64,000 nt of DNA from Nitrospirae bacterium GWF2_44_13 (GTDB taxonomy: Bacteria; Nitrospirota; Thermodesulfovibrionia; Thermodesulfovibrionales; UBA1546), in assembly GCA_001805105.1 (NCBI GenBank), contig MHEE01000014.1, forward strand, positions 1 through 64,000, written 5' to 3'. The position numbers and the translations under genes were made by a program. Below the pieces are notes generated by a model, which did no database searches, was not told the DNA's origin, and worked only from the letters and a program-made list of their open reading frames with translations. This document shows, piece after piece, positions 3,663-52,518 of the stretch. Each line of letters starts with the position of its first letter. Within the stretch, counting starts at the first letter, position 1.

Positions 3663-4463
3663 ATGAAATACACTCAAATCACAAGCGCCTCAAATCCCAA
3701 AATCAAAGAAGCGCTGGATATTAAAAACAAACGAAGCAAATACAAACACGCCGCATTTATTATTGAAGGCACGCATCTTGTAGAGACGGCGCTGGCGTCA
3801 GGCAATAAAATAAACACGGCCTTCTTCACGGATTTATTCAGGGCAAAAAAAGACGGGCAGAAGATATTAAGAGAGATTGGAAAAAAGACAGATGAGATAT
3901 TTGAGGTTACAGAACAGATAATGCACAAACTCGCTGATACAGAGACGCCTCAGGGGATTATCGCAACAGCATCTTATGCCGGAAAAAACCTTGAAGAAAT
4001 TAGATTCAAATTGGTTCCATTAATTGTGGCAGTTGACGGAGTTCAGGAGCCGGGGAATTTAGGGACAATAATAAGGACTTCTGATGCCGCAGGCGCAGAT
4101 GCAGTGGTAATCCTCAAAGGCACATGTGATGTCTTCATGCAGAAAACAATAAGGGCCACTGCCGGAAGCATATTCAACATCCCGATAATTTATACCGGCA
4201 CTGATAAATTCCTTGAATGGCTGACGCTAAACGGCATAATGCTCATTGCAACTGCGCTTGATTCAGGCAAATCAATCTTTGATGCAGGACTGAAAAACCC
4301 AATTGCCTTTGTATTCGGCAATGAGGCGCATGGCGTGAGCAGTGAGATTAAGAGAAAAACTGATTTGATTTTAAAGATTCCAATCTTTGGAAAAGCCGAA
4401 AGCCTTAATGTCTCAGCATCCGTAGCGGTATGTCTTTATGAAACTGTAAGACAGCGTCTTTAA
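3663..4463 (+). CDS. TrmH/SpoU-family RNA 2'-O-methyltransferase
   Basis: The N-terminal substrate-binding domain (ITSASNPKIKEAL, FIIEGTHLVETAL) precedes the SPOUT catalytic domain with motif 1 (EPGNLGTIIRTSDAAGAD), motif 2 (FVFGNEAHGVS) and motif 3 (IPIFGKAESLNVSASVAV). It probably methylates a ribose in 23S rRNA using SAM, like RlmB/TsnR-type enzymes; the exact target is not decided. The ATG at 3663 starts the family-like sequence MKYTQITSASNPK. An in-frame ATG at 3636 would add nine residues; neither has a clear Shine-Dalgarno. It converges on atpC, with adjacent stop codons. Confidence 0.9.
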   Translation: MKYTQITSASNPKIKEALDIKNKRSKYKHAAFIIEGTHLVETALASGNKINTAFFTDLFRAKKDGQKILREIGKKTDEIFEVTEQIMHKLADTETPQGIIATASYAGKNLEEIRFKLVPLIVAVDGVQEPGNLGTIIRTSDAAGADAVVILKGTCDVFMQKTIRATAGSIFNIPIIYTGTDKFLEWLTLNGIMLIATALDSGKSIFDAGLKNPIAFVFGNEAHGVSSEIKRKTDLILKIPIFGKAESLNVSASVAVCLYETVRQRL

Positions 4464-7321: not shown

Positions 7322-8830
7322 TTATGCCTGAAATCCTTTCTTGAAATCTTCAACAGCTGATATTAGTTTTGCCTTGAGGGCATCATCAATCGCCTTCTTT
7401 TCTCCAAGCTCCTTCTTGATGTCCGCCTTGCGGTCATTTATATAGCGCAGGAACTCCTGCTCAAACTTCTTGACTGATTCCACTGGAATATCATCAATGA
7501 ATCCCTGTGTCGCGGCAAAAAGAACCAGAACCTGATCTATCATTGTCATAGGCACAAACTGGTCCTGCTTCAGAAGTTCTACCATCCTTTTGCCTCTCTC
7601 TATCTGTGCCAGGGTTGTCTTGTCAAGGTCGCTTCCGAACTGCGCAAATGCGGCAAGCTCCCTGAACTGCGCAAGGTCCAGCCTGAGTGTGCCTGCGACC
7701 TGCTTCATTGCCTTTGTCTGCGCGGCGCCGCCGACACGGCTTACTGAGAGGCCTACATTAACGGCAGGCCTTATGCCTGCATAGAAAAGTTCAGGTTCAA
7801 GATATATCTGTCCGTCTGTGATAGAGATAACATTTGTCGGAATATAACCTGAAACGTCGCCTGCCTGTGTTTCTATTATAGGAAGCGCTGTCAGCGAACC
7901 GCCTCCGAGTTCTTTAGAAAGTTTAGCAGCCCTTTCAAGAAGCCTTGAATGCAGATAGAAAACATCTCCCGGGAATGCCTCACGTCCGGGCGGCCGCCTG
8001 AGAAGCAGCGATAACTGCCTATACGCTGTAGCCTGTTTGCTGAGGTCATCGTATATTATCAAAGCGTGTTTGCCGCTATCCCTGAAATACTCGCCTATTG
8101 AGCATCCTGTGTATGGAGCAATGTACTGCAATGGCGCGGGCTCGCTTGCTGTTGCTGAAACTATGATTGTGTGCTCCATTGCGCCGTTTTCTTCCAGAGT
8201 CTTCATAACACGCGCTACATTTGAACGCTTCTGTCCGACCGCAACATATATGCATGTAACATCTCCGCCCTTCTGATTTATGATTGCATCTATTGCTATT
8301 GCCGTCTTTCCTGTCTGTCTGTCGCCGATGATAAGCTCTCTCTGTCCTCTTCCGACAGGTATCATGGAATCTATTGCCTTAAGTCCTGTCTGCATAGGTT
8401 CGGAAACAGGCTGCCTGTCAACAATGCCCGGGGCAACAACATCAACTATCCTGAAATCTTTTGTATTAATGGGGCCCTTTCCGTCAATCGGCTGACCGAT
8501 AGCGTTGACAACCCTGCCTCTCATCGCTTCACCCACAGGCACGGACATAATCCTGCCTGTGCGTTTAACAATATCGCCTTCATGAATAAACGAGTCCTCT
8601 CCGAAGAGAACCGCGCCCACAGTATCTTCTTCAAGGTTGAGGGCCATTCCCATAATATTATTCGGGAATTCAAGAAGCTCCGAAGACATGCATTTGTCAA
8701 GCCCGTAAACCCTCGCTATACCGTCGCCAACTGAGACGACAGTTCCAATCTCGCTGACATCAACCTTCTTTTCAAAGTCTGTTATCTGTTTTCTTAGAAG
8801 TTCACTTATCTCATCAACCTTAATTTCCAT
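7322..8830 (-). CDS. atpA: ATP synthase F1 alpha subunit
   Basis: 502 residues. Walker A GDRQTGKT at 169-176, the segment [20 protein letters not shown] and the Arg-finger region [14 protein letters not shown] are intact. It is the regulatory nucleotide-binding subunit of the hexamer. It lies between delta (4 bp upstream) and gamma in the conserved order. Confidence 0.98.
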
Positions 8831-9374: not shown

Positions 9375-10012
9375 TTTTTGCCTTCTATCTTTGCTAAAGA
9401 TTCCTCAAGCAGTTTAAGCTGCTCTTCTTCAGTAAGTTTTTCTTTAAGTTTTTTCTCTGCAAGTTCTATTGCAATGGCAGATGCCTCTTCCATTATTGTT
9501 TCCTTAGCCCTTTTAACCTCGTAAGCTATATTAGTCCTTGCCTGCTCAAGTATTTTTTCTTTCATCCTGCTGCCTTCTTCGATAAGCCGCGCTTTCTCCT
9601 TTTCTCCCGACTCTTTCGCTGATGAAACAATCTCCCCTATCTCTCTGTCCCTTGCCTTAAGCCTTTCTTCAACCTCTGCGAGGGCTTTCTGCGCCAGTTC
9701 CCTTGCCTGTTGTGCCTCTTTGAGAGTTTTTTCTATAAGCTCTGTTCTCTGTTTCAAAAAAGACTGCAACGGCTTTTTACCAAACTTATATAAAACAAAA
9801 AATAAAATTCCAAAATTTATAATCTTCCAGAGATAGTCCTTAGCTATCGCTCCTGCGCTTCCTTCTTCCCCGCCTCCGCTTGCGAAAGTAAAAGAAGCCG
9901 AAAGTAAAAAACAAATAACAACCAGAACAAATGATGCATGATGCACGATGCACGATGCATGATTCTTTTTATCCTGTATCCTGTATCTTGTATCTTGTAT
10001 CGTGGTTTTCAT
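9371..10012 (-). CDS. atpF: ATP synthase F0 subunit b with repeat-derived N-terminus
   Basis: 213 residues, longer than the usual 150-170. Residues 30-45 are a signal-peptide-like hydrophobic stretch, followed by a Gly/Glu linker, the membrane helix (LWKIINFGILFFVLYKFG) and a long charged coiled coil. Residues 4-27 are encoded by two heptamer repeat arrays (9933-10001). The start is fixed by the ATGA overlap with the b' gene and by the lack of a later ATG, so the repeats appear to be truly translated. Function: peripheral stator stalk. Confidence 0.92.
   Translation of the reverse strand: MKTTIQDTRYRIQDKKNHASCIVHHASFVLVVICFLLSASFTFASGGGEEGSAGAIAKDYLWKIINFGILFFVLYKFGKKPLQSFLKQRTELIEKTLKEAQQARELAQKALAEVEERLKARDREIGEIVSSAKESGEKEKARLIEEGSRMKEKILEQARTNIAYEVKRAKETIMEEASAIAIELAEKKLKEKLTEEEQLKLLEESLAKIEGKN
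9933..9967. repeat. Heptamer array inside atpF (unit GATGCAT)
   Basis: Units GATGCAT, GATGCAC, GATGCAC, GATGCAT, GATTCTT. It lies in frame within the first 30 codons of atpF. Confidence 0.9.
9967..10001. repeat. Heptamer array inside atpF (unit CTGTATC)
   Basis: Units TTTTATC, CTGTATC, CTGTATC, TTGTATC, TTGTATC. Directly adjacent to the GATGCAT array but with a different unit; together they span 69 nt, exactly 23 codons. Confidence 0.9.
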
Positions 10013-39468: not shown

Positions 39469-41388
39469 GTGAAGAAAAGCTTTCTGTTTTTAGCTGTATT
39501 CCTTGTTATTTTCAGCGCTGCTTCAGGCGAAGACATAAACGGAAAGCCTTTTTTTATAAAGGGCAAAAGCGAGTTTGATGCCGGCAGATATGCCGGGGCA
39601 ATCGAGAACCTGTCCGAGGCCTACAAAAGGCTTCCTGTTGTCAGGGATTACATACTTTTTTATCTGTCAAGGGCGTACAGCGAATCAGGCAATATCAGCG
39701 AATCTGATTTAAGAATAAAAGAACTCTTGAAAGATTATCCGTCATCCCCATTGCGTAAAAAGGTGCGGAGGCTGGAAATCAAAAATCTTATTGCTTCAGG
39801 CGAGATGCCGCATAATCCTGAGATTCTTGAGTCTTATGTCAGGGATTATTCTGAAGACAATGAGATGAAATTCCTGTTTGCAAAGCATCTCAGGGATAAA
39901 GGGGAAACAGAAAGGGCAAGGGCAATTTTCAAAACCATCTATCTCAGCAGCGAGGGGCTGTTCTCGAAAATATCATACAATGAACTGGCAGCTTCTGATA
40001 TTACCCCGCAGGATATTATTGAAAAGGCGGCTAACCTGACAAATGTGACGGAGTTTAAAAAAGCAGAATCCGCATTGAGAGAGGCGCTGGCAAAAGACGA
40101 CGGGCAGCGAAGGATTGAAATCATTAAAAAACTCGGCTATGTGTTATTCAAGCAAAAGCGCTATAAAGAATCGGCAGATGCGTATGGAAAAGCAGGAGAT
40201 CATTATCTGAAGGCAAAGGCGCTTTACAGGGCAGGAGACAAAACCGGATTTGACAGAGTTCTGAAGAAACTGTCTTTAATGGATGACAAAAGGACCGGCT
40301 CGCTTCTGATATTGGCGGCATTGGATAAAAGGAGGAACGGCGAGATTGGTGAAGCGCTGAATTTATATCAAACAATAAAGGAGAAGTATCCGGCCGAAGC
40401 TGAAAACGCTCAATGGGGCATCGCGTGGACATACTACCGCACTGGCAGCTATCAGAAAGCCCTTGATGCCCTTACATCTCTTTACGATAGCTATGGCAGC
40501 TCAAAATACCTCTACTGGAAGGCTCAGTCTCTTGAAAGGACAGGCGGGAATGCAGGCCATATTTACAAACAGCTCGCGGTTAAAACACAGGATTTTTACA
40601 GCATCCTTCCGCAGATAAAGAAAAGTCATGGGACTGAGAACCCTCCATCCCTCGTCGCCTCCGGCGACTCGCCGGGGAGAGAACACTCTGAATATAAGCC
40701 TTTCAAATCTGAGAGGATTGAAATACTTCTTGAAGCCGGCATGACAAAAGAGGCTGCGGCAGAACTGTCCGCTATAGCCGGAAAAACTACGAATCCTGAC
40801 AAGCTCATATCTGTTTCCCTTAAATTGCAGGAATGCGGGGAATACAGGGAGGCCTTAACCCTGCTCTCACGGCTGCCGTCCAGAGAGGTTGCGCACAATA
40901 TTTTGTACCCTCTTGCCCACTGGCATATTGTAAGGGATGTATCTGACAAATATAACATTGACCCATTTATCATTCTTTCTATCATGAGAGAGGAGAGCCG
41001 TTTTGACACGCAGGCGCGCTCACAGGCAGGCGCTCTCGGTCTCATGCAGCTTATGCCGCAGACAGCCTATGCCATAGACAAAAAAATAAATCTGAACATA
41101 AAATCGCATGAGCATATCCTTGATGCAAAGGCAAACATAAATCTCGGCTCATACTACATGGCATCTCTCTTAAAAGAGTTCGGCTCTCTTCCTGCGGCTG
41201 TCGCAGCTTATAACGCAGGGGAGGACGTTGTGAGAAAATGGCAGAAGGCAGGCAACTATCAATCATTTGATGAATTCATAGAGGATATTCCTTACGAAGA
41301 GACTAAAAACTATACCAAGCGCGTTATTACAACTTATTTTGAGTATCATAAATATTCCGGCGAAAAAGGCAGCCCTGAAAATCTTTGA
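39469..41388 (+). CDS. slt: Soluble lytic murein transglycosylase
   Basis: About 639 residues from GTG 39469, which begins a signal peptide (KKSFLFLAVFLVIFSAASG); a frame-start at 39355 would bury it. TPR-like helical repeats (about 30-470) precede the SLT domain: catalytic Glu in IMREESRFDTQA, GALGLMQLMPQTA, AAVAAYNAGEDVV. It cleaves peptidoglycan in the periplasm with 1,6-anhydro product formation. A GC-rich double-hairpin element at 40654-40675 encodes LVASGDSPG in the linker region. Confidence 0.92.
   Translation: MKKSFLFLAVFLVIFSAASGEDINGKPFFIKGKSEFDAGRYAGAIENLSEAYKRLPVVRDYILFYLSRAYSESGNISESDLRIKELLKDYPSSPLRKKVRRLEIKNLIASGEMPHNPEILESYVRDYSEDNEMKFLFAKHLRDKGETERARAIFKTIYLSSEGLFSKISYNELAASDITPQDIIEKAANLTNVTEFKKAESALREALAKDDGQRRIEIIKKLGYVLFKQKRYKESADAYGKAGDHYLKAKALYRAGDKTGFDRVLKKLSLMDDKRTGSLLILAALDKRRNGEIGEALNLYQTIKEKYPAEAENAQWGIAWTYYRTGSYQKALDALTSLYDSYGSSKYLYWKAQSLERTGGNAGHIYKQLAVKTQDFYSILPQIKKSHGTENPPSLVASGDSPGREHSEYKPFKSERIEILLEAGMTKEAAAELSAIAGKTTNPDKLISVSLKLQECGEYREALTLLSRLPSREVAHNILYPLAHWHIVRDVSDKYNIDPFIILSIMREESRFDTQARSQAGALGLMQLMPQTAYAIDKKINLNIKSHEHILDAKANINLGSYYMASLLKEFGSLPAAVAAYNAGEDVVRKWQKAGNYQSFDEFIEDIPYEETKNYTKRVITTYFEYHKYSGEKGSPENL
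40654..40675. repeat. Double-hairpin repeat inside slt
   Basis: GTCGCC-TCC-GGCGAC overlaps CCGGCGA-C-TCGCCGG. Its reverse complement matches the element in lptD (51121-51140) at 17 of 20 positions; consensus GGCGASTCGCCKGAGGCGAS. Confidence 0.75.
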
Positions 41389-43506: not shown

Positions 43507-44745
43507 ATGCATGACAGCGGAGATATAAGAACAGCCTTTGAAATACCCGAGATAGAAAAATTATACGGCGGCAGTTTTACGGACGGCTACAGCGTCCGCC
43601 TTCTGTGGAAGAACGGCGAACTTTTCAAGGCGATATTTGATTCCATTGCGGGTGCAGAAAGATTCGTCTGTCTTGAATTCTACATATTCCGCAATGATGA
43701 AACAGGCATTGAATTGGCAGAGCTGCTGAAAAAAAAAGCCGCAGAAGGAGTCCGAGTATTCATTCTTTATGACCACTTCGGCTCTTTTGGAACACCGCGG
43801 AAATTCTGGGCAGAATTAAAACAAGCAGGGATAAATGTCAGGGCATCTTACCCTTTCAAGTGGACCGCTCCATTGCATTATGCCCGGCGCGACCATAAAA
43901 AACTCATCCTGATAGACGGGGAAAGGGCATTCACAGGAGGGTTGAATATCGCAAATGAATACAGGGGATATTATTTCAAAAGGCATAAAGAGGCCTGGCG
44001 GGATACAGGCATACTGCTTGAAGGCCCGATAGCCGGGACGCTGCTAAGCGAGTTTGAGAAAAGCTGGCTGCTATGGGGCGGAAAGCCTATCGAAACAGAA
44101 GCCAGAAGGCAAAAAACCAAGATTCAGGATTCAGGATACAAGATTCAGGATAATCATGCATCGGAGGACTCTCAACTCTCAACTCTCAACTCTGGTGCTC
44201 TGCCTGTGCTGCCTATATTTGCAAGTTCATCACGAGGGAGGAGAAGGCTGAGAAAGCTTTTATACTACAGCATCAATCATGCAAGAAAGAGCATATTTCT
44301 CACTACAGCCTATTTCACTCCAAGCAGAAGGATGATTGACATGCTGTCGGAAGCTGTTAAAAGGGGCGCCATAGTCAGGCTGCTCTTGCCGCTAAAAAGC
44401 GATGTGCTGGTTGCGGATTATGCAGGAAGGGCGTCATTCACAGAACTGCTGCAAGCCAGCGTGCAGATTTACACCTATAAAGGCAGGATACTTCATGCCA
44501 AGACTGCCGTGTTTGACGGCTGCTGGAGCATTATAGGTTCTGCAAATCTTGATTTTCAGTCACTGAGGAGGAATGATGAGGGGAATGTCGGAATACTTGA
44601 CAAAAAATTCGGGCAAAAGATGATGGACGTATTTGAGGCAGATATTAAAGACTCTGCAAAAATAGAACCGGATGAGTGGGCAAAACGGAATTTCTGCGAA
44701 AAAATCAAAGAAAGATTTTTTGTCCTCTTCAGAAGACGGTTATAA
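43507..44745 (+). CDS. Phospholipase D-family protein (cardiolipin synthase-like)
   Basis: 412 residues with two HxKxxxxD sites: HKKLILID (about 137-144, followed by FTGGLNIANE) and HAKTAVFD (with GSANLDFQSLRRNDEGN). No N-terminal membrane helices are seen, unlike classical Cls, so it is closer to ClsB/YbhO-like proteins. Between the two domains, two heptamer arrays encode a polar insert (about residues 200-230). Likely makes cardiolipin. It lies on the strand opposite to the kinase/regulator genes around it. Confidence 0.88.
   Translation: MHDSGDIRTAFEIPEIEKLYGGSFTDGYSVRLLWKNGELFKAIFDSIAGAERFVCLEFYIFRNDETGIELAELLKKKAAEGVRVFILYDHFGSFGTPRKFWAELKQAGINVRASYPFKWTAPLHYARRDHKKLILIDGERAFTGGLNIANEYRGYYFKRHKEAWRDTGILLEGPIAGTLLSEFEKSWLLWGGKPIETEARRQKTKIQDSGYKIQDNHASEDSQLSTLNSGALPVLPIFASSSRGRRRLRKLLYYSINHARKSIFLTTAYFTPSRRMIDMLSEAVKRGAIVRLLLPLKSDVLVADYAGRASFTELLQASVQIYTYKGRILHAKTAVFDGCWSIIGSANLDFQSLRRNDEGNVGILDKKFGQKMMDVFEADIKDSAKIEPDEWAKRNFCEKIKERFFVLFRRRL
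44121..44155. repeat. Heptamer array inside the PLD gene (unit GATTCAG)
   Basis: Units GATTCAG, GATTCAG, GATACAA, GATTCAG, GATAATC. Confidence 0.9.
44168..44195. repeat. Heptamer array inside the PLD gene (unit ACTCTCA)
   Basis: Units ACTCTCA, ACTCTCA, ACTCTCA, ACTCTGG. Three exact copies, 12 bp after an array of a different unit. Confidence 0.9.
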
Positions 44746-49072: not shown

Positions 49073-51169
49073 TTATTTCCTCGCAGAATAAGAGCCGAGT
49101 CCGAGCAAATCAAACGTAACAAAGACACTAATCTCGCTTGGCTTGTTGTTTACCTCATCAGGAGGCTTTCTGTTAACCATTATTGTCATTCCCCAACACT
49201 GTTGAAGATACTTCATGATAAACGAAGAATCCCTCATTCCTCCTCCTTTAGAATCATACCAAAGTTTAACCTCAGCGGACAAGTTTTTAGAATGAGTATA
49301 CCCGACCCCTATATCGTAGAACATAGTATTGTTAGGCTGGTTGTACCTCTCCCCAAAGGAAAATGCAAATTTTTTAAAAGGGATTGAGACGCTTGAGTTT
49401 ATAGTCTCCATACGGTCTGTATAGTGATTATAAGAGGCATCAGCAGTTACAGGGAAAGGCCTTGGAATATATGCTGACACACTTAACGGAGAAAGCGGAA
49501 CGTCCCGTTCATATGTATTATATGACTCCGACACGCTTACGGTAAGGAACTCTCCCTTTTTATCAAGGAGGCGGTTTGTAAGAGACATTCCTATTGTTGA
49601 CTGCTTTGTAGAAAGTTCCGTGGAATCAAACAGCGGAACATTTTTAATCCATGGCACAAAAGTATATCCCAAAGAAGGTTCAATGCCGTGGGTAAAATTC
49701 TCGCTATATTTTTTTATGAACCGGCTGGACGCTGTGATATTGTAGTCAAACATATCTCTGTGCACTGAACTCTTAAAGCCCTCGTCAGCATTGTCCTGTA
49801 AGGAATATACTGTTTCTCTCAGCCCGAGATTCTGGAATATAATAACTCTGTCGCCGAAGGAATGAGAAAGTTTGGGATAAATATCAAGACGCTGTCCTGA
49901 TACGCCTTTGTCCCTTGCGAAGTTTGAGGCAGATGATGTCATTGAGAAAACCAAAGGGCCTGCGCTGGATGGATTAACAACATACCCTAATTCAGGCAGT
50001 CTCTGAGCTACCGCTGAATTATGACTCCCGTCTTTAAGGTCAATAATATACTGCGACATGAGGTAAAGGCGTGAATTGTCCGAAGGAAGCGTCAGTTCGC
50101 CGGTTGATTCAAGAAATCTGTTTACCCTTTCATCGCGGTGCATGCTGAATTCCCTGTAAAAATTTTCTTCACTTAACAGATTAATATTCCAGTATCCGGA
50201 AAGACCATCCTTGCTCCTTTTCGAATGGGTAGACTTAAGTTCATAAAAATCCAGTTCTGCCTTTTTGTCTCGGAAGTGATAGAGCCAGTGTTTGCCCTCC
50301 ACATTTCCGGGCGCTACATATCTATATTCAGCCCCTTCTCCCAAGCCTGCTTTTGTATACCAGTCAACAATAAATGTCGCGTCCTTGTCTTCATCTATCG
50401 CCCAGAAAAACGGCTGCCTGTAATAGAATCCTTTTGACTGTGTATGACCAAATACAGGTGTCAGAAGCCCTGTTTTTCTTTCGGTAAGTGCAGGCCCCAA
50501 GAGATAAGGCGTATATAAAAAAGGGAAGTCTTTGACATGGAAAGTGGCATCACGCACCTTGAAGCGGTCTCCGATAATTATGTCAGCAGTCCTGCCTTTG
50601 ATACACCACTCAGGAGAGGGATTTTCGCATGTTGTTATTGATGCCTTTTTAATGAAATATTCCTTTTCTCCTTTCTTTTCTATCTCTTCACCTGAGACAC
50701 GGAACTTTTCTTTTTTTGAGAAAATCTCCGCATTATAAAAAGTGCCTTTTTTTGTATTGAGATTAAACTCTGCCTTTTCTGCTTTAAGGATTATATCAGG
50801 GGTGTCGAATATCACATTGCCTTCAGGAAAGACATTTGATGTCTTCTCATCATACTGCATCTCATTTGCAATCATTATTGTCTCGCCTTGTTCAACAAGC
50901 ACAGAGCCTTTTGCCGTATACATTGATGTGCTTTTTTCATACTTTAAAGAATCTGATGTTATGAATGTCGGAGGCTCTTCAGCAAAACAGTAAACAGCAG
51001 ACTGCAGGCAGCAGACACTAAAGAGTAATAAAAAAAACAGGAAAGAATGATACATGATACATGATACATGATACATGATACTTTTCTTTTTATATGCCGT
51101 ATCCTGCATTCTGTCTCCTCGGCGACTCGCCTGAGGCGAGAATCCTGCATCTTGCATCGTGTGTTTCAT
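49073..51169 (-). CDS. lptD: LPS-assembly outer-membrane protein LptD
   Basis: About 698 residues from ATG 51169, fixed by the ATGA overlap with the folC stop. An LptA-like N-domain (FITSDSLKYEKSTSMYTAKG, GNVIFDTPDIILKAEKAEF) precedes a C-terminal beta barrel rich in aromatic-ended strands. It inserts LPS in the outer leaflet. The first 65 residues, before and inside the hydrophobic signal (FLFFLLLFSVCC), are encoded almost wholly by heptamer arrays and a palindrome. The signal still looks usable. Confidence 0.9.
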   Translation of the reverse strand: MKHTMQDAGFSPQASRRGDRMQDTAYKKKSIMYHVSCIMYHSFLFFLLLFSVCCLQSAVYCFAEEPPTFITSDSLKYEKSTSMYTAKGSVLVEQGETIMIANEMQYDEKTSNVFPEGNVIFDTPDIILKAEKAEFNLNTKKGTFYNAEIFSKKEKFRVSGEEIEKKGEKEYFIKKASITTCENPSPEWCIKGRTADIIIGDRFKVRDATFHVKDFPFLYTPYLLGPALTERKTGLLTPVFGHTQSKGFYYRQPFFWAIDEDKDATFIVDWYTKAGLGEGAEYRYVAPGNVEGKHWLYHFRDKKAELDFYELKSTHSKRSKDGLSGYWNINLLSEENFYREFSMHRDERVNRFLESTGELTLPSDNSRLYLMSQYIIDLKDGSHNSAVAQRLPELGYVVNPSSAGPLVFSMTSSASNFARDKGVSGQRLDIYPKLSHSFGDRVIIFQNLGLRETVYSLQDNADEGFKSSVHRDMFDYNITASSRFIKKYSENFTHGIEPSLGYTFVPWIKNVPLFDSTELSTKQSTIGMSLTNRLLDKKGEFLTVSVSESYNTYERDVPLSPLSVSAYIPRPFPVTADASYNHYTDRMETINSSVSIPFKKFAFSFGERYNQPNNTMFYDIGVGYTHSKNLSAEVKLWYDSKGGGMRDSSFIMKYLQQCWGMTIMVNRKPPDEVNNKPSEISVFVTFDLLGLGSYSARK
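50988..51029. repeat. Heptamer array inside lptD (unit CAGCAGA)
   Basis: Units CAGTAAA, CAGCAGA, CTGCAGG, CAGCAGA, CACTAAA, GAGTAAT. It encodes the last part of the signal sequence. Confidence 0.75.
51049..51083. repeat. Heptamer array inside lptD (unit GATACAT)
   Basis: GATACAT four times without a change, then GATACTT. The cleanest array in the window. Confidence 0.95.
51099..51167. repeat. Composite: heptamer array split by a double-hairpin element (lptD 5' end)
   Basis: Units GTATCCT, GCATTCT, GTCTCCT (51099-51119), then the 20-bp hairpin element at 51121-51140 shared with slt, then GAATCCT, GCATCTT, GCATCGT, GTGTTTC. The palindrome looks as if it was inserted into a pre-existing array. 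Confidence 0.75.
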
Positions 51170-52518
51170 AGTGTTTCCCTCAAACTCGAAAAAATCCCTC
51201 TTCCACAAAGTATTTCCTTTGCTTCGCCTATAGTGTAAAACGAGCCTGTAATCAGGAGGAGTTCGGAGTTTTTTGCTGAAGGCTGAGGGCTGAACGCTGA
51301 AAGGTTAATTGCCATATCAATTGCCTCTTTCACAGTCGGCGCCAGATGGATATTCGTAAATCCCATCCCTGCTGCACACTCTGCAAGTTTCTGCGGTGAT
51401 GCTGCCCTCTCATAAGCGGGCGCTGTCAATATAATTTCAGCGGCAAGGGGCAGAAGCGGCGCCATTATCCCTCTTACGTTTTTATCAGACATGATGCCTG
51501 CAATCAATATTATTCTCCTGTATTTCTTGAAAAAAATTTCCCTAAGCGCATCGGCAAGAATTTTCGCAGCCGAAGGGTTATGCGCCCCGTCAATCAAAAT
51601 CAGCGGTTCCTTTGAGATGAATTCGAGCCTGCCCTGCCATTTTATATTTCCAAGCCCATTTCTGATAGCGTGATGCGTGATGCATGATGCGTGATGCGAA
51701 GATTTCTTAGAAACAATTTCAATCGTTTTTAGCGCAAGAGACGCATTCAACACCTGATGCCTGCCGGGAAGTGCTATAACCAAATCCTCGAAACAACTAT
51801 CGCCGTTATAATTAAAAACACTTCCACTCGTATCCTCTGACTTTATTGCCACTGAAAAATCCCTTCCATAAATAAAAAGGTCGGCATTCTTTTCTCCGGC
51901 TCTCCTTTCAATTACATTCATTACAGACAGCTCCTGCGCTGACGTAATAACAGGGACACCATCCTTTATTATCCCTGCCTTTTCTTCTGCAATCGCTGAG
52001 ATGGTATTGCCGAGAAATTCGCTGTGGTCATAATTGATACTTGTTATAACAGCTGCCTCAGGCAACAGAACATTTGTTGCATCAAGCCGTCCGCCCATCC
52101 CTGTCTCGACTACTGCCCAGTCAATGTTTTTCCTCTTAAAATACAGCAGCCCCATCGCAGTTACAAACTCAAAGAAAGTAGGATTCAGCTCAGAGCCTTC
52201 TATTTTGCTTCTTATCTCTTCTGTGAGTTCAACTACCTCCCACTCTGTTATCTCTTCATTATTGACCCTGATCCTCTCTGTGAAACTTACAAGATGCGGA
52301 GATGTAAACAATCCCGTCCTGAACCCCGCAGCCTGCAATATTGAAGCTATCATTGCTGATGTAGAGCCTTTCCCGTTTGTCCCTGCAACATGGATAGAGT
52401 GAAATTTTTCCTGCGGATTGCCAAGTAGAGAAAGCAGTTTCACGGTGTTATCAAGCCCCAGCTTGATACCGTGTTTCTGAAGCCCGTAGAGATAATCTAT
52501 TGCACCGGCGTAACCCAT
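51166..52518 (-). CDS. folC: Folylpolyglutamate synthase / dihydrofolate synthase
   Basis: 450 residues. Mur-ligase fold: P-loop VAGTNGKGSTSAMIA, TSPHLVSFTERI, the carbamylated-Lys region AEEKAGIIKDGVP and LIDGAHNPSAAK. Adds glutamate to folates and forms dihydrofolate. Two heptamer arrays are in frame: one encodes SHHASCITHHAIR in the middle, the other SAFSPQPSAKN near the end; core motifs are intact. Confidence 0.95.
   Translation of the reverse strand: MGYAGAIDYLYGLQKHGIKLGLDNTVKLLSLLGNPQEKFHSIHVAGTNGKGSTSAMIASILQAAGFRTGLFTSPHLVSFTERIRVNNEEITEWEVVELTEEIRSKIEGSELNPTFFEFVTAMGLLYFKRKNIDWAVVETGMGGRLDATNVLLPEAAVITSINYDHSEFLGNTISAIAEEKAGIIKDGVPVITSAQELSVMNVIERRAGEKNADLFIYGRDFSVAIKSEDTSGSVFNYNGDSCFEDLVIALPGRHQVLNASLALKTIEIVSKKSSHHASCITHHAIRNGLGNIKWQGRLEFISKEPLILIDGAHNPSAAKILADALREIFFKKYRRIILIAGIMSDKNVRGIMAPLLPLAAEIILTAPAYERAASPQKLAECAAGMGFTNIHLAPTVKEAIDMAINLSAFSPQPSAKNSELLLITGSFYTIGEAKEILCGRGIFSSLRETL
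51275..51302. repeat. Heptamer array inside folC (unit GCTGAAG)
   Basis: Units GCTGAAG, GCTGAGG, GCTGAAC, GCTGAAA. Confidence 0.85.
51670..51697. repeat. Heptamer array inside folC (unit GTGATGC)
   Basis: Units GTGATGC, GTGATGC, ATGATGC, GTGATGC. Confidence 0.9.

Follow-up and report, generated by a model that had tools for sequence, protein, structure and literature searches.

What is a block of heptamer repeats doing at the very start of lptD, and does it act as a switch? The initial annotation of this locus saw four separate repeat blocks covering the whole signal peptide of an outer-membrane protein, and suggested that a change in copy number would shift the reading frame. The window (the whole stretch of 64,000 nucleotides that was analyzed) is contig C14 of a 1.99-Mb genome, G000, and the named relatives are Thermodesulfovibrionales/Nitrospirota metagenome-assembled genomes (MAGs). 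The product of the gene matches the Pfam family LptD (PF04453, E 3.6e-28) and also has an LptD_N domain, the two following a Sec signal peptide recognized by hydropathy and charge only. The gene is present in 41 of 41 relatives. Here it lies directly after folC, and the two genes are found together, with their ATGA overlap, in most relatives; the first-listed start, a TTG at 51208, is probably not the start of lptD. Read on the lptD strand, the block (50985-51169) begins with ATGAAACACAC and then runs through the following parts, a short T-rich stretch separating the last two.

49073..51169, minus strand: lptD coding sequence, an ORF whose ATG (51169-51167) overlaps the folC stop as ATGA
51142..51158, minus strand: first part of the 5' purine-rich arm, GATGCAAGATGCAGGAT (GATGCAA GATGCAG GAT), which pairs with 51047-51081 in the predicted RNA fold
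51114..51140, minus strand: 27-bp GC hairpin CTCGCCTCAGGCGAGTCGCCGAGGAGA, which interrupts a unit as GATN^CAG, is missing from G006 and G002, and contains a GC-rich double hairpin of 20 bp (51121-51140)
51094..51110, minus strand: remainder of the 5' arm, the GATNCAN remnant AATGCAGGATACGGCAT, common to G000 and G006
51082..51093, minus strand: A-rich loop ATAAAAAGAAAA
51047..51081, minus strand: 3' pyrimidine-rich arm, five perfect TATCATG units (GATACAT on the plus strand), TRF score 70 with 100% matches
50985..51017, minus strand: degenerate GTCTGCT/GTTTACT heptamer array that codes for the last part of the hydrophobic core and for the cleavage region (predicted, YCFA-EE), at which it ends (VCCLQSAVYCFA); seen by TRF, period-7 scan, relatives and hydropathy

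The repeats are real, and the five TATCATG units are the strongest tandem array, with the highest TRF score, in the window; the GTCTGCT/GTTTACT array is weaker, at 76% matches. Because the G000 genome holds no perfect copy of the pattern CAGCAGACAGCAGA, the array of that pattern is a degenerate one. The mosaic does span the entire signal peptide, and a hairpin does split one of the arrays; G006 lacks exactly that 27-bp insert. The reading as four blocks has to be revised, however: the arrays exist, but two of the blocks, GCATCNT and GATACAT, form the opposite arms of a single inverted element. The window contains a second copy of the GC double hairpin, with 3 mismatches, within an ORF at 40654-40673. 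After another ORF, at 1164-1214, are C-rich and G-rich inverted short tandem repeats (TAACCCCCCCT / TTAAGAGGGAG) that resemble the C-rich hairpin of the relatives described below.

Are such repeats peculiar to lptD? They are not; the block is one copy of a dispersed element family. Period-7 match runs of at least 10 number 8 in the window against 0.05 expected from Markov shuffles, and period 7 alone stands out among the simple periods there; 410 kb of G000 has 31 period-7 match runs against 0.6 expected. Over a sample of 850 kb of the 1.99 Mb, period-7 arrays occur at about 142 per Mb and period 8 comes next at 27 per Mb, densities that are approximate since part of the sample was drawn around known matches; the orientation and pairing tests given below are independent of density. 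In being tandem heptamers in which some positions are fixed and others degenerate, and in exceeding other periods, these arrays are like the Xanthomonas and STRR repeats. GATNCAN-like units make up 63 of 147 arrays. Three-unit GATRCAN is found in 27 of 296 Nitrospirota genomes, the family of G000 being the richest, and the reversed-pattern control is near zero (3 matches, in one genome). In 180 kb of the control genome G009 there is no period-7 array at all. G026 (stretches L127-L136) is without GATRCAN arrays; other units nonetheless make up period-7 arrays there, at about 100 per Mb. Further arrays lie elsewhere in the window.

51275..51301: GCTGAAG array in folC, reading LSAFSPQPSA; congeners have other arrays or none at the site
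51668..51698: GCGTGAT array in folC, reading SHHASCITHHAIR; a non-repeat sequence of the same length stands here in G005, G006 and G007
9931..10004: element of the GATNCAN family at the N-terminus of an ATP synthase b subunit gene
44096..44193: heptamer-array mosaic within a phospholipase D-like gene; each congener has a different mosaic

The element consists of a pair of GATNCAN arrays, inverted and converging, 5'-(GATNCAN)n-loop-(NTGNATC)n-3'. There are 86 GATNCAN arms of at least two units in the 850 kb of G000, and neighboring arms no more than 90 nt apart form 36 convergent pairs, no divergent pair and 1 tandem pair. The corresponding numbers are 16, 0 and 5 for G008, which belongs to a second genus, and the congeners add 3 convergent and 0 divergent pairs, so that 55 convergent pairs stand against 0 divergent ones. 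It is, like the Rickettsia palindromic elements (RPEs), a short palindromic element capable of forming a hairpin. Its length recurs, modally as 4+4 units. The elements align end to end, loop included, and their flanks do not align; because arrays of one unit align trivially, this end-to-end similarity is only moderate evidence of copying. No conserved flank or terminal motif common to the copies is apparent by eye. Hairpins are nested in element loops, and the GC hairpin has six copies in the genome, of which four share one position within a GATNCAN arm, GATN^CAR. The diacylglycerol kinase-like gene offers a nested case (L084:13165-13296), with TCAGAAG outside, a GATNCAN pair inside and ACTCCGA outside again. 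The lptD genes of G005 and G003 (L013, L016) have elements built from units of 8 bases (GAGCAGCA / CTACTGGT), again convergent, and period 8 is mildly in excess.

Does pure local replication slippage account for these arrays? Heptamers would then grow independently at many sites, because polymerases would have a preference for slipping by about 7 nt; neither mobility nor copying would be involved, and the apparent hairpins would come from template switching. Neighboring units within an arm are alike (121 of 156 share their N7 class), as slippage would have it, three units have been gained or lost at lptD, single-arm arrays exist beside the paired elements, and the footprint of the polymerase has been suggested as the reason for heptamers (cited in PMC4692102). 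Independent slippage does not, however, lead one to expect the common GATNCAN vocabulary, an exclusively convergent order, the recurrence of the 4+4 length and of the loop, or the presence of a 27-bp hairpin in four arms at one and the same point. Local slippage explains the number of units; it does not explain the common vocabulary and the order of the arms, and as a full account we think it rather unlikely.

The predicted folds of the element are ladders of 3 bp, 1 mismatch, 2 bp and 1 mismatch. The arms pair in GAT and CA, and complementary letters at the variable positions 4 and 7 are rarer than expected by chance, as judged against arm partners permuted between elements. The fraction able to pair in G000 is 0.068 at N7, against 0.252 permuted, and 0.255 at N4, against 0.377; for G008 the values are 0.206 against 0.343 and 0.181 against 0.321 (p<=0.0002 in both genomes). 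Coding constraint was considered as the full cause of these mismatches and rejected, because the deficit is also present in elements outside genes (0.127 against 0.255). Within genes alone, the test for purine/pyrimidine opposition was not significant (p 0.21).

Where do the copies lie? The 36 paired elements of G000 comprise 12 that are ORF-internal, 6 N-terminal, 1 C-terminal, 6 across gene ends and 11 intergenic; with 19 of 36 inside ORFs, the location is not the mainly intergenic one of the Xanthomonas and STRR repeats. These 19 in-gene copies are variants of one peptide, roughly IQDTGYRIQDKKNHASCIMHHAS (or, in another rendering, [IM]QDTGYRIQDKKNHASCIMHHAS), in unrelated proteins. Such in-frame copies with a recurring peptide, in many unrelated protein-coding genes, are what RPEs also display. 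The hosts, given by common names derived from their Pfam families, include queuine tRNA-ribosyltransferase (TGT), KdsB, QueA, YbeY, LpxK, an RsmE-type methyltransferase, HypF, a histidine kinase, a CobB-like enzyme, AtpF, a diacylglycerol kinase-like protein and an outer-membrane efflux protein. In alignments to solved TGT, KdsB, YbeY and QueA, the peptide falls either within an insertion or in the interval between two stretches that align, and it matches many further open frames in the genus. One stretch, L054, has three in-frame elements within 5.5 kb, in YbeY (4223-4291), QueA (7798-7895) and a SpoIID-domain protein (9634-9716).

Read in the sense of the gene, most 5' arms are of the type with a purine at N7 (0.74 against 0.09). 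Such in-gene polarity is explicable by stop-codon avoidance, because T at N7 in the 5' arm gives TGA. Of 27 in-gene elements, 18 have their first GAT at codon position 3. Averaged over all frames, the pyrimidine-rich (right) arm codes for more hydrophobic residues than the purine-rich arm in 36 of 36 elements, and the convergent order thereby mirrors, as it happens, the arrangement of a signal peptide; the remark concerns codons and is not a proof of selection.

If the element folds, does it serve as a signal? A hairpin in the folC-lptD mRNA might control translation of lptD or stability of the message, or the arms might be binding sites for a protein, and similar roles have been proposed for the TAACTGA repeats near start codons (PMC4679880). 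The predicted RNA fold of the lptD element (z -3.66) and that of the KdsB copy (z -5.6) speak for such a role. The atpF copy, at z -1.2, folds little better than its shuffles, however, copies are found anywhere, whether internal to genes, N-terminal or intergenic, the units at one site differ between species, and G009 keeps folC-lptD without any arrays. A signaling role thus seems to us most improbable.

What has become of the same sites in sister species? Seven orthologous sites were compared, in lptD, KdsB, QueA, TGT, atpF, the PLD gene and folC. A period-7 or period-8 array is present in 24 of 29 congener sequences, mostly of a different unit, against a background of 101 in 6000 random segments (1.7%). 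The clearest case is KdsB, in which one loop has six arrangements in six species, namely GATACAG, a GATACAG form shorter by 21 nt, AACTTTC, GTTCAGC with a C-rich hairpin, GGGGATT, and AGAGCAGA. At lptD, G000 differs from G006 by +27 (the GC hairpin) and +21 (three TATCATG units), the element itself being common to both. In G002 the lptD loop carries a C-rich hairpin; the hairpin (CCCCCCTCTATCCCCCCTTAG...) occupies the loop of a heptamer hairpin in both lptD and folC of that genome (G002:C96, L071, 7685-7844 and 8862-8987), and it is also seen in an element of G008 and beside the KdsB array of G004. The lptD signal peptides of other family members are made of quite different heptamers. A conserved non-repeat sequence at this place, which the initial annotation had named as the contrary outcome, is not what the relatives show: apart from G009, where the signal peptide is ordinary, they carry repeats of other kinds. 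One apparent empty site was found, in folC of G002 as compared with G000, where about 15-18 nt of host sequence seem to have been replaced and no target duplication is visible.

Might the lptD block nevertheless be a phase-variable contingency locus, in which gain or loss of units in the five-unit array switches LptD or alters its N-terminus? The unit, of 7 nt, cannot be divided by 3, the five units are perfect, and perfect tandem units such as these are prone to slippage. The unit count does differ between species, as had been anticipated. The frame-shifting, variable expression proposed with it finds no support: the differences in block length at lptD are +3, -69, -48, -30, -48 and +6, every one a multiple of 3, and the LptD reading continues through the block in the congeners compared. 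Over the seven sites, 27 of 27 non-zero length differences in complete segments are multiples of 3 (the QueA segment of G006 is cut by a contig end), though these share ancestry and are not 27 independent events; length differences of intergenic arrays include 1 and 2 mod 3. All 15 of 15 LptD N-termini keep a positive n-region and a hydrophobic core, as judged by hydropathy and charge. The G007 lptD match (L017) is reported with one TAG inside. Moreover, lptD is expected to be essential, and the same elements are found in many housekeeping genes, not mainly in genes of surface variation. Between species, then, the number of units changes and every state seen keeps the frame, which gives phase variation no support; we judge a contingency locus very unlikely.

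One might also ask whether the repeats are an artefact of assembly, as repeats are prone to misassembly and the named relatives are MAGs. Eight congeners show the same phenomenon with the frame kept, however, and the control G009 is free of such arrays, so that we give this explanation practically no credence.

What, then, is the block? The family is genome-wide and always convergent, its length and in-gene peptide recur, the frame is kept, and the same positions carry different units in sister species. We consider it probable that the lptD block is a copy of a dispersed, hairpin-forming element, in frame, whose purine-rich arm supplies the polar n-region and whose pyrimidine-rich arm, with the further heptamer array, supplies much of the hydrophobic part of the signal peptide, and that it is selfish or neutral-like rather than a switch. 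The element would behave as a selfish or neutral palindromic insertion, as RPEs do. Elements may have spread or been re-created, surviving in proteins that can accommodate an added loop or a signal peptide that varies, and unit number would then change through slippage. The element's hairpin might itself be a hotspot for further hairpin insertion and replacement, and selection would remove states that break the frame. Long perfect palindromes are unstable in bacteria; arms that are too perfectly complementary would presumably be lost, leaving mismatches at the variable positions.

By what machinery might the copies arise? Mobilization by a RAYT of the kind that moves REP elements, end joining by Ku, and an RVT_1 reverse transcriptase were considered as sources and set aside, the genes being absent from G000. 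Searches of that genome found no gene for Ku, Y1 transposase or RVT_1, and so none of the machinery usually invoked for end joining, REP mobility and reverse transcription; the Y1 transposase (PF01797) is found in several congeners. A more radical proposal, which we regard as doubtful, is that these are fixed fragile sites within genes whose sequence is rewritten again and again. In this scheme, cutting or stalling would occur at the tip of a hairpin, short repeats would be added to both 3' ends, and the ends would be rejoined by a repair that uses neither Ku nor an RVT_1-family reverse transcriptase. End extension at broken hairpins would explain the convergent order, the nesting and the exchange of units. 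If the proposal were true, the arms would always be convergent, arrays would be nested like an "onion", each arm would vary on its own, and unit families would be exchanged while the site stayed the same, in a lineage that constantly swaps loops in its housekeeping proteins and rebuilds its signal peptides from heptamers.

How does the dispersed element compare with known systems? It shares tandem heptamers with the cyanobacterial STRR repeats, which, in work by Vioque from 1997, reportedly form a hairpin within rnpB, the gene for RNase P RNA. STRR units are different, as is the host phylum, and their context is mostly non-coding. RPEs are short hairpin elements found in frame in unrelated genes, where the host protein tolerates a recurring peptide (reviewed in PMC10969869), and the dispersed, in-frame, recurring-peptide hairpins in genes of G000 are like them. 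RPEs are, however, about 150 bp long and their family sequences are not described as tandem heptamers, whereas the arms here are heptamer arrays, of several unit families, with other families at the same gene positions in sister species. The Xanthomonas (GGGANTN)n and Nostoc GGGGAYT repeats are degenerate heptamers, often in two close convergent arrays whose length varies between related species, and are described as intergenic and G-quadruplex forming (PMC4692102); those studied here are not G-rich, are often within genes, and have variable positions that are non-complementary between arms. We do not claim that the element belongs to either the RPEs or the Xanthomonas repeats, the likeness to RPEs being one of description and the architecture being different. 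The TAACTGA repeats of the Beggiatoaceae also form abundant heptamer arrays, some of them in genes, near protein ends, but they are direct repeats of a single unit, mostly just upstream of start codons, with one indirect repeat reported (PMC4679880), unlike the paired inverted arms here. In-gene tandem repeats of the archaeal Borgs do not break frames, their unit lengths being multiples of 3 (PMC9879509); here the unit is 7 and only the total length is a multiple of 3. A literature search found no prior description of heptamer or palindromic elements in Nitrospirota, most subscription journals being outside its coverage, and a text search of papers for the element peptides gave no match.

In-frame palindromic elements are best known from Rickettsia, and here an unrelated phylum has reached the same outcome with a different architecture. 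For annotation there is a warning, since peptides such as IQDTGYRIQD and HHASCIMHHAS mark inserted repeats, not homology. The over-representation of heptamer repeats in bacteria has been noted and is still unexplained, and the present family gives a way to ask how they arise. The conservation of sites, with exchange of sequences between sister species, provides a large natural collection of loop insertions that well-known enzymes tolerate, and a route by which signal peptides can arise from simple repeats.
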